This document shows positions 313 to 28,414 of a DNA stretch of 64,000 bases, in pieces. The notes under the pieces were generated by a model, which saw only the letters and a program-made list of their open reading frames with translations, ran no database searches and had not been told where the DNA came from. A program made the translations under genes and the position numbers. The DNA comes from an uncultured Dehalococcoidia bacterium (GTDB taxonomy: Bacteria > Chloroflexota > Dehalococcoidia > Lucifugimonadales > UBA1123). The stretch is from contig OY282441.1 of NCBI GenBank assembly GCA_958296105.1, positions 2,625,800 through 2,689,799 on the forward strand, given 5' to 3'. Position 1 is the first letter of the stretch, and the number at the start of each line of letters is the position of its first letter.

Positions 313-351
313 GTTGCTGACTAGGGGACGCCGTACTGGTGGAGATCACGG

Positions 352-615
352 ATGGCAGTAAAGACAAGACACAGGGTGATCGTCAGGCGCAGGCTGCGCA
401 GACCCGTATGGGATGGCATCGCGCGCATATTCGACTTCACAGGATCGCTGAACGCACATACGAGACCGCTTCCGCTTCCGCCTGATGTTGCCGATCAGCG
501 CGCGATCTGGATGGATTGGAAAGTGGTAGCCGATGATCTGGAGACGGTTATGGGCAGTCAGGCGTCGGGCAGGGCTCCTGATCACCGTCGCGGGGCATAT
601 CTGAAAGGTGGCTGA
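352..615 (+). CDS. Small basic hypothetical protein upstream of a DUF2335 gene
   Basis: This 87-residue product has a very basic N terminus (Arg-rich, residues 4-17) and an acidic-aromatic middle (AIWMDWKVVADDLETVMG, about residues 51-68). The ATG at 352 follows GGAGATCA by a few bases, a usable ribosome binding site. Its stop overlaps the GTG start of the next gene by 8 bases, which suggests translational coupling. I do not recognise a domain. The coupling makes a shared role with the DUF2335 membrane protein plausible, but that is inference. Confidence 0.55.
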   Translation: MAVKTRHRVIVRRRLRRPVWDGIARIFDFTGSLNAHTRPLPLPPDVADQRAIWMDWKVVADDLETVMGSQASGRAPDHRRGAYLKGG

Positions 616-1084
616 CGACAGGCTCGCAGCCGGTCCGCCCGATTCTACTGATCGAACATCTATCGAATCGGACAGGCGAACTGTCAAGGATGAATCACTT
701 CCTGTTGCGTTTCAGCATACTTGGTCTGCGCCTTTGCCCCCACCTGCTACGCTTATCGAGTACAACGACGCCGTACCAGACGGGGCGGGACGAATCTTCT
801 CGATGGTGGAAAGGCAGGCAAGCCACCGCATGGAGATGGAAGCTGTAACGACTGCGGCTGATTACAGGCTCGCTCAGACAGGGCAGTGGATCGGGTTGAC
901 AGTGGTCATCGCTGTCCTAGCTCTGGCAGGATACTTGGCTTATCTGGGCGCGACCACTGCGGCGGCGGCGGTTGCGGGAATTGACTTGATTGGTCTTGCA
1001 GCAGTATTCGTATATGGCAGTCTCAGCAAGCGAGCCGTTCGTGAGATTCACCACGTAGAGGATGCCGACATAACTGTCGAGTAG
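608..1084 (+). CDS. DUF2335 family membrane protein
   Basis: The 158-residue product matches what I know of DUF2335. A hydrophilic N-terminal region carries the PLPPPATLIEYNDAVPDGA stretch (residues 43-61), then a motif around MVERQASHRMEME, then two hydrophobic segments (about residues 98-116 and 119-137). The C terminus is short and charged. The start is GTG at 608, overlapping the preceding stop. The function of DUF2335 is not established; members are small predicted membrane proteins often found among accessory genes. Confidence 0.75.
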   Translation: MADDRLAAGPPDSTDRTSIESDRRTVKDESLPVAFQHTWSAPLPPPATLIEYNDAVPDGAGRIFSMVERQASHRMEMEAVTTAADYRLAQTGQWIGLTVVIAVLALAGYLAYLGATTAAAAVAGIDLIGLAAVFVYGSLSKRAVREIHHVEDADITVE

Positions 1085-25598: not shown

Positions 25599-26741
25599 CT
25601 ACTCCAGCCCCAGCTGGTGGTGCTTGCCCTCCGTCTTGATCGAGGGCGCGACCACCACCTCCGCCACCTCGTGCATCTCGCGGATGTTCTCCGCGCCCAC
25701 CATCCCTAGGCATATGTTCAGCGCGCCCACGAGGTTCTGCGTCCCGTCCACTACGGAGCTGGGCCCGAACAGTATCTGCTCCAGCGTTCCCTTGACGCCC
25801 ACCTCTACCCGCGTGCCTCGCGGCAGGTTGGGGTCGGGGTTCGCCATGCCCCAGTTGTAGCCCTTGCCCGGCGCCTCCTTCGCCTGCGCCAGCGGCGTGC
25901 CGATCATCACCGCGTCCGCGCCGGACGCCATAGCCTTGCACAGGTCGCCGCCCGTCCTGATGCCGCCGTCCGTGATGATGGGAACGTACCTGCCGCTGCG
26001 CTCGAAGTACTCGTCCCGCGCCGCTGCCGTGTCCATCGTGGCAGTCACCTGCGGAATGCCCACGCCCGTAACCTCTCGCGTGGTACACGCCGCGCCCGGC
26101 CCAACGCCCACCAGCACGCCGTGAATGCCCGTCTCCATCAGCTCCAGCGCCACCTCGTAGCTAACGCAGTTGCCCACCATTACAGGCACGTCCACCATCT
26201 CCAGCAGCTGCGGAAACCTCAGCCCGCGCGCGCTCTTGGATACGTGCCGCGCCGTGGTGACGGTGGACTGCACCACGATCACGTCCGCGCCCGCCTCCGC
26301 GGCCAGCGGAGCAAGCCTCTTCGTGCGCGCTGGAGTAAACGAAACGGCGCACTTGGCGCCGCTCCGCTTTATCTCGTCCACCCGCTCGCCGATCAGATCC
26401 TCTCGGATGGGGGCGGAATATACCCTCTGAAGCAGCGAAGTCACCTCCGCCTGCGGCGTCCCCACTATCTCCTCGATCACCGCCTGCGGGTCTTCGTAAC
26501 GGCTGTGGACGCCCTCCATGTTGGTAACCGCCATGCCGCCGAGCCTGTCCATCTCCCCCGCGAATTCGGGAGACGAAACCGCGTCCATCGCCCCGCCCAG
26601 AACGGGGGTCGAGAGCGTTATGCCGTCCACCGAGAAGTCCGTGCTGGTAAGCTCGGGGTTTATCGTTATCGAGCCTGGCGCTATCGCCACCTCATCGAAT
26701 CCATATACTCGCCGAAGCTCTCTGAGACGGGAAACCCTCAT
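25599..26741 (-). CDS. guaB3: GuaB3-type IMP dehydrogenase family protein
   Basis: The 380-residue product is a (beta/alpha)8 IMPDH/GMPR family enzyme without a CBS insert, the GuaB3 type. It begins [20 protein letters not shown] and has the [15 protein letters not shown] segment. The active-site loop [15 protein letters not shown] contains the catalytic cysteine, and the phosphate site is [11 protein letters not shown]. It may oxidise IMP in GTP synthesis, but GuaB3 function is less certain than GuaB. ATG 26741 gives the usual N terminus; the frame is open to 26798. Confidence 0.88.
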
Positions 26742-26817: not shown

Positions 26818-27075
26818 TCACAGACGGGCGAGAATAGCGGCCATCATGTCCTGAAGATCGGGGAACAGATGCGCGTCCGGCAGGTGCTGGTGCGATGCCA
26901 CCAGCTCGCCGTCTACGAAGATGTGGAACTTGCCGTGCGAGCTGGGAACCAGCGTGAACTCCGCGATATGCTCGCCGCTGCGACTGAGAGCTTCTCCCGC
27001 CATCCAGGCGGCGCGCAGAGCGTGGCCTCAATGCTGACAGTACTCCAACCGAACCCTGAGACCATCGCCAGCCAT
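26818..27075 (-). CDS. selW: SelW-like (Rdx family) selenoprotein, Sec at in-frame TGA
   Basis: Reading from ATG 27075 through the TGA at 27030-27028 gives 85 residues. They begin with LRVRLEYCQHUGHALRAA and continue GKFHIFVDGELVASHQHLP and FPDLQDMMAAILARL. This is the thioredoxin-like Rdx fold of SelW/SelT/SelH. The TGA falls exactly at the second redox position, making CxxU (Cys13, Sec16), as in known SelW proteins. The upstream start has GAGGTG 6 bases before it, and a hairpin lies downstream of the TGA. A conventional caller would report only the 61-residue remainder from ATG 27003, which lacks the active site. Likely a thiol/selenol redox protein. A nonsense mutation in a CxxC gene is the alternative. 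Confidence 0.75.
26997..27011 (-). promoter_or_regulatory. SECIS-like hairpin after the selW TGA
   Basis: On the minus strand CCGCC-TGGAT-GGCGG forms a 5-bp GC stem with a five-base loop. The loop starts 21 bases after the TGA and has G at its second position. Bacterial SECIS elements are reported as hairpins close behind the UGA with a G in the first loop positions, so this fits. The short lower stem is the weak point. Confidence 0.5.
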
Positions 27076-27081
27076 AAAGCC

Positions 27082-27092
27082 CACCTCTCCTT
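27082..27092 (-). promoter_or_regulatory. Ribosome binding site that fixes the selW start
   Basis: The minus strand reads AAGGAGAGGTG, ending 6 bases before ATG 27075. No comparable site precedes the internal ATG at 27003. The site therefore argues that translation starts upstream of the TGA. Confidence 0.7.
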
Positions 27093-27108: not shown

Positions 27109-27138
27109 ATGATATGCCCTGAAGGGATATTTGGTCAA
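27109..27138 (-). promoter_or_regulatory. Possible selW promoter
   Basis: TTGACC (27138-27133) and TATCAT (27114-27109) on the minus strand are 18 bases apart, placing the start about 27 bases before ATG 27075. The hexamers match five and five of six consensus bases. Confidence 0.45.
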
Positions 27139-27214: not shown

Positions 27215-28414
27215 ATGGAGATCGTGTACAATCACCGCAAGAGACCCGTGACCATCGAGCAAGACATAAAATCCCTAGCCCTCTCCATCGGCTTCGACCG
27301 GGTCGGCATCACGGACGCCGCGCCGTTCGTCCGAGACGAGGCCGCCGCCGCCGAGCGCGTGCGCAGCGGGCTGATGGACGGCCTCCACTGGTACACGGAG
27401 GAGCGCGTTCGACGCATGAACCGCCCCAAGACCCTGCTGGAAGGCGCGCGCTCGGTCATATCGCTCGCCATGAGCTACAAGACGACCGAGCCGCCGCACG
27501 CTTCCGATGTCCCGCGCGGGAGCGTGGCGAGATACGCCTGGGGACGCGACTACCACAGCCTGATGAAGAGCAGGGTGAGACGGTTCATCCGCGAAATGCC
27601 CGAAGTCGCAGGCGCGCCGCTCAGAGCGCGCTACTTCGTGGACGACGGCCCAATGAACGACCGAGCCGCCGCCGAGCGCGCAGGCGTGGGCTGGTTCGGG
27701 AAGAACACCAACATACTGACCGCCACACATGGCTCATGGGTATTCCTCGCCGAGGTGGTCACCGACCTGAAGCTGAAGCCCGACCGCCCGCTGAAGAAGA
27801 CGTGCGGCGAGTGTGTCCGCTGCATCCCCGCCTGTCCCACGGACGCGATCGTGGCCCCCTACGTCATCGACAACCGCAAGTGCATCTCTTTTCTCACCAT
27901 AGAGCTGCGCGGCGCGATTCCCAAGCCCCTGCGCCCGCTGATGGGCGACTGGGTGTTCGGCTGCGACATATGCCAAGAGGTCTGCCCGGTCAACCGCAAA
28001 GCCGCATCCAGCCGCGAGGCGGACTTCGGGAAGCGCCACGACTTCGACGCGCCCGATCTGCTGCCCCTGCTGTCGCTGGACGAGGACGGCTTCCGACAGA
28101 GATTCGAGGGCAGCCCGATCAGGCGCGCCAAGCTGAGCGGACTTAAGCGAAACGTATGCGTGGCGCTCGGCAACATAGGCGACCCGTCCGCAGCGCCCGC
28201 GCTGGCGCGCGCCCTCCACTCCGAAGATGCGCTCGTGAGGTCTCACGCAGCGTGGGCGCTCGGACGCATAGGCGGGGACGTCGCCAAGCCCGCGCTGGAA
28301 GCCGCCCTAGTCCGAGAGCGAAACGCCGAGACGCTGGAAGAGATCGAATCCGCGCTGAAAGCCGCCCTAGTCCGAGAGCGAAACGCCGAGACGCCGAAGG
28401 AGACGAGCGCCTAG
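27215..28414 (+). CDS. queG: Epoxyqueuosine reductase QueG with HEAT-like tail
   Basis: The product, about 399 residues, reduces epoxyqueuosine to queuosine in tRNA using a cobalamin and two 4Fe-4S clusters. Visible features are GFDRVGITDAAPF at the N terminus, RYAWGRDYH, and the cluster motifs CGECVRCIPACPTDAI and CDICQEVCPVN. The C terminus is a PBS/HEAT-like helical repeat (DPSAAPALARALHSED, RSHAAWALGRIGG). ATG 27215 has no good ribosome binding site; GTG 27248 is an equally possible start. The last 40 residues contain a 20-residue duplication. Its end overlaps the convergent ATPase gene by 4 bases. Confidence 0.92.
   Translation: MEIVYNHRKRPVTIEQDIKSLALSIGFDRVGITDAAPFVRDEAAAAERVRSGLMDGLHWYTEERVRRMNRPKTLLEGARSVISLAMSYKTTEPPHASDVPRGSVARYAWGRDYHSLMKSRVRRFIREMPEVAGAPLRARYFVDDGPMNDRAAAERAGVGWFGKNTNILTATHGSWVFLAEVVTDLKLKPDRPLKKTCGECVRCIPACPTDAIVAPYVIDNRKCISFLTIELRGAIPKPLRPLMGDWVFGCDICQEVCPVNRKAASSREADFGKRHDFDAPDLLPLLSLDEDGFRQRFEGSPIRRAKLSGLKRNVCVALGNIGDPSAAPALARALHSEDALVRSHAAWALGRIGGDVAKPALEAALVRERNAETLEEIESALKAALVRERNAETPKETSA
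28291..28393. repeat. 60-bp tandem duplication in the queG 3' end
   Basis: The segment 28291-28333 recurs at 28351-28393 with a period of exactly 60 bases and near identity. It duplicates the peptide AALVRERNAET in frame, so it lengthens the QueG tail without breaking it. Confidence 0.85.

Follow-up and report, generated by a model that had tools for sequence, protein, structure and literature searches.

A SelW-like gene of the Rdx family with an in-frame UGA probably decoded as selenocysteine in a Dehalococcoidia genome

In the 64,000-nucleotide stretch of DNA analysed here (the window) we have identified what is, with high confidence, a functional selenoprotein gene, SelW-like and belonging to the Rdx family, in which the UGA at codon 16 would be decoded as selenocysteine (Sec) by means of SelB, tRNA-Sec and a hairpin of the message. 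As far as sequences can tell, the structure of the gene, the presence of the decoding machinery and the conservation of the SECIS element are demonstrated by comparison with related genomes. The kind of protein and the mechanism are already known, and no new mechanism is proposed; the less expected features are a second paralogue of the TGA type in the same genome and the pairing of selW with guaB3 in part of the order.

The gene, its product and its fold

The selW-like frame occupies positions 27075-26818 of the minus strand, starting with the ATG at 27075 and terminating with the TGA at 26820-26818. Translation of this strand through the in-frame TGA at 27030-27028 gives a product of 85 residues (MAGDGLRVRLEYCQHUGHALRAAWMAGEALSRSGEHIAEFTLVPSSHGKFHIFVDGELVASHQHLPDAHLFPDLQDMMAAILARL), where the TGA corresponds to residue 16 and the motif C-Q-H-U spans residues 13-16. 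Just 5' of the ATG lies AAGGAGAGG (27081-27092, minus strand), the region of the ribosome binding site, and further upstream on the same strand there is a promoter-like site (27109-27138; TTGACC, a spacer of 18 nt, TATCAT), recognized by its match to the consensus only. The first-pass annotation had proposed that reading through the TGA joins this start and ribosome binding site to the remainder of an Rdx protein; the coordinates agree, and the joined protein passes the Rdx cut-offs. It had placed the TGA at the second position of the redox motif, which is correct in so far as the TGA encodes the second redox residue, but within the motif this is the fourth position. Without the read-through, as had also been pointed out, the sole listed open reading frame is one of 61 amino acids (26818-27003), from which the CXXU motif is missing. 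Among the other in-frame TGA candidates within the window none had a comparable redox motif context; in one read-through frame (349-831, minus strand) a Cys adjoins the TGA (DQVCU), probably by chance. A search of a phage collection gave no relative.

In profile searches the read-through protein scored 53.8 bits against the Pfam family Rdx (PF10262; curated cut-off 22.6) and 38.2 bits against TIGR02174, CXXU_selWTH (curated cut-off 34.2). Cys13 and residue 16 were invariant in the orthologue set A1. An AlphaFold2 model built from the alignment (pLDDT 94) consists of a strand, a long helix, further strands and a C-terminal helix, and the CXXU motif is situated between the first strand (residues 6-13) and the first helix (18-36). 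The best PDB matches of the model were the SelW-related bacterial proteins 2ojl, 2fa8, 2oka, 3dex, 2p0g and 2obk, with TM-scores of about 0.8 and a sequence identity of about 23-34%; thioredoxins were weaker matches and ranked after them, and a profile search against solved structures, to which the read-through protein could be aligned as well as to its homologues, was in agreement. In 2fa8 a Cys stands where our protein has Sec. According to the model the protein has the thioredoxin-like SelW fold.

Most likely the product is a small thiol/selenol oxidoreductase. SelB carrying the Sec-tRNA would bind the hairpin and insert Sec at residue 16; judging from the family, Sec16 and Cys13 would form the redox pair, where the Sec might attack a disulfide or an oxidised substrate and Cys13 would then resolve the selenenylsulfide. 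The cellular role of SelW is inferred. A His-rich segment (H-x-H-x-P-D-A-H; 26869-26892, minus strand), which most members of this orthologue group retain and the other Rdx groups lack, is a possible metal or substrate site.

Decoding machinery and homologues in the order

The host genome, a single contig of 3.18 Mb, contains all four genes that the first-pass annotation had suggested looking for, including the two, selB and selC, whose absence would have spoken against its reading. tRNA-Sec (selC) scored 66 bits (gathering score 47) and was also called by ARAGORN as SeC with the anticodon TCA, while selA, selB and selD scored 524, 330 and 379 bits, respectively. The selD gene (L056:1501-2418, equal to G000:C1:539652-540569) carries an in-frame TGA of its own, in the motif CAGU, therefore the selenophosphate-supplying enzyme is itself a selenoprotein. 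A second, distinct Rdx/SelW paralogue was recognized in the same genome (L060, C1:874377-874601), whose TGA occupies the corresponding place in CXXU; this paralogue is a member of a different clade, of the CVPU type, that occurs widely in the order.

For comparison 60 genomes were used, namely the host genome and 59 relatives of the same order; the relatives that bear names in the collection are metagenome-assembled genomes of Dehalococcoidia and Chloroflexi. Rdx was present in 48 of the 60, and in the 68 Rdx genes of the order extracted for codon comparison the codon at the position in question was TGA in 59 and TGC or TGT in the other nine, with no further variant. Since the first Cys is invariant and the A-A-W-M context after the TGA is conserved in the orthologue alignment, the frame across the TGA constitutes one gene. 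In close orthologues the changes 3' of the TGA fell mostly on the third codon position (L062 and L064 differ there by 3, 0 and 22 substitutions at codon positions 1, 2 and 3), and the frame was continuous upstream, where the 12 codons by themselves allow no strong test. In one locus (L110, 2482-2734) the SelW match was composed of two overlapping tblastn segments, which suggests a frameshift in the assembly or in the gene.

The distribution of the machinery was examined in the same genomes. Five relatives (G022, G034, G037, G048 and G059) had neither a selB above the cut-off nor a convincing tRNA-Sec; no Rdx gene of the TGA type was found in any of these five, and two of them have the Cys form. 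If genomes are taken as independent, although they are related, the chance that all five would lack the TGA-type gene is 0.0008. One genome, G052, has a TGA-type Rdx gene without a full selB or a tRNA-Sec; an assembly gap is the likely reason, because a fragment scoring as selB is present (206 bits, positions 2-185) and the assembly consists of 420 contigs. Sec-using forms of SelW are spread widely over this Dehalococcoidia order, and both types of Rdx gene, with TGA and with Cys, are common in the class at large.

The hairpin downstream of the UGA

A hairpin with a G in its loop had been noticed in the first-pass annotation at the distance usual for a bacterial SECIS element. It lies at 26997-27011 on the minus strand, with a stem of 5 bp (27011-27007/27001-26997), the apical loop UGGAU (27006-27002) and an energy of -10.2 kcal/mol; it begins 16 nt and its loop 21 nt after the UGA. 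The bacterial model of bSECISearch calls for a loop of 3-9 nt, a stem of 4-16 bp, a G at loop position 1 or 2, a spacing of 16-37 nt between UGA and loop, and a minimum free energy at or below -7.5 kcal/mol (PMC13188914). With its loop of 5, stem of 5, spacing of 21, the position of the G and its energy, the selW hairpin agrees with this consensus throughout, and no feature of it falls outside the model. It should be emphasized that a loose bacterial SECIS rule with a stem of at least five pairs is satisfied by roughly 37% of all TGA triplets in the window (n=1701), and it was dropped as evidence for being non-specific; since the rule is so loose, conservation was tested. An Rfam scan of the region gave no meaningful match, the best ones being far under the gathering scores. 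On its own the hairpin is weak evidence, and it is the comparative sequence data that make it significant.

In two pairs of the stem, 24-30 and 21-33, both partners are wobble positions, each in a separate codon, and these pairs covary as C-G, U-A, G-C and A-U. The pair 24-30 connects the third positions of two codons that have a single codon between them; among the 59 TGA genes the combinations were GCC with ATG in 34, GCT or TCT with ATA in 8 and GCG with ATC, CTC or TTC in 3, the rest being mostly GTC-ATG pairs or an unpaired ACG group. The pair 21-33 was G-C in 20, C-G in 19, U-A in 6, A-U in 6 and G-U in one of these 59 genes. When synonymous codons were shuffled, a control which overstates the independence of the sequences as they are related, the full stem was present in 25 of the 59 TGA genes against 4.7 expected, whereas in the Cys homologues the pairing was not in excess (2.33 pairs vs 2.31). 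Within the orthologue group (n=14) 98.6% of the cells are paired and 7 double changes occur; the covariation score of 0.345 (0.155 in the shuffled sets) was reached in none of 500 shuffles, to which the same reservation about relatedness applies. The form of the SECIS varies within the family, since in many genes from the second paralogue group pairing is limited to four of the five stem positions, and in a small group, ATW/AVW, to one or two. As judged from these substitutions, the RNA structure is under a constraint of its own in addition to that on the protein, and this constraint is specific to the TGA form. Translation through the UGA and the maintenance of the hairpin as an RNA structure are both supported by the comparison.

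That the TGA might be an ordinary stop, arisen by nonsense mutation or sequencing error, so that the 61-residue downstream frame or nothing is made, is very improbable: the conventional frame does exist, but 59 homologous genes from dozens of families of the order retain the TGA, with coding sequence conserved on both sides of it, and the genome has the full Sec machinery. The first-pass annotation had named a plain stop with decay upstream of it in close relatives as an observation that would contradict the selenocysteine reading; what was found is a retained TGA and an intact upstream part. We regard as scarcely credible, to the same degree, a general reassignment or suppression of UGA in the lineage, by which Trp, Cys or another residue would be inserted. 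It would account for a TGA inside an otherwise open frame, but selW itself terminates with TGA, and this terminator is found in 9 of the 59 TGA-type genes; where the site does not hold TGA it invariably encodes Cys, the genome possesses SelB and a dedicated tRNA-Sec, and the TGA-type genes retain the hairpin whereas those of the Cys type do not. The homologues, the machinery and the covariation of the SECIS all favour selenocysteine, and the host cell almost certainly reads the in-frame TGA as such.

Genomic neighbourhood and relation to known selenoproteins

On the other side of selW, divergently oriented and outside the selenoprotein gene, lies queG for epoxyqueuosine reductase (27215-28414, plus strand; TIGR00276, 366 bits). 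Downstream by 76 nt on the same strand as selW is a gene related to IMP dehydrogenase of the guaB3 family (25599-26741, minus strand; TIGR01304, 409 bits), possibly co-transcribed with it. The same order, with selW directly 5' of guaB3 on one strand, is present in the window, in two relatives of the same genus and two of the same family, and also in one other family (L037/L103) and in L110. The orthologues of other families stand beside genes for a 2-hydroxyacid dehydrogenase, a protein with Rex-like domains, a CoA-transferase or a glyoxalase; a universal linkage was ruled out by these differing neighbours, and the selW-guaB3 linkage is therefore lineage-specific. In L104, L105, L106 and L107 the SelW orthologue lies near a gene which, in the two cases tested (L104 and L106), has the domains Put_DNA-bind_N and CoA_binding, the arrangement of the redox repressor Rex. 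A gene resembling D-2-hydroxyacid dehydrogenase adjoins the orthologue in L104, L106, L107 and L109.

Enzymes of the IMPDH type use a catalytic cysteine. Together with the adjacency, which weakly hints at a link with the GuaB3 enzyme, this could be taken to mean that the specific task of the selenoprotein is to keep the neighbouring GuaB3 reduced. We consider this specific task unlikely, since orthologues elsewhere have other neighbours and the gap between the two genes is 76 nt or more; equally doubtful is the wider proposal that selW has become fixed in this lineage beside guaB3 as an operon-like pair, its product maintaining the cysteines of the purine enzyme. Were it true, the pair would tie selenium supply to guanine nucleotide synthesis.

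Descriptions of SelW-like selenoproteins from bacteria go back at least to 2006 (Zhang et al. 2006, PMC1794560); such proteins were found with the motif CxxU in the GOS survey of 2008 (PMC2398784), and are among the commonest selenoproteins in the sea, with which a later marine survey agrees (PMC9402790). As characterized in the first two sources, these are short proteins of the Rdx family with a CXXU motif, the UGA at the second redox residue and a SECIS just downstream, as is the case here; the His-rich segment before the C-terminal helix is an additional trait of the present orthologue group. The survey of 2006 counted three selenoproteins in Chloroflexi, among which SelW is not named in the passages dealing with them (PMC1794560). 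A search of the open literature for "selenoprotein" and "SAR202" together found no paper.

As a demonstration of a bacterial SECIS element by comparison, the wobble-position covariation of the hairpin is unusually clean. With conventional gene calling the active site of SelW would be lost in this genome and in dozens of related species.
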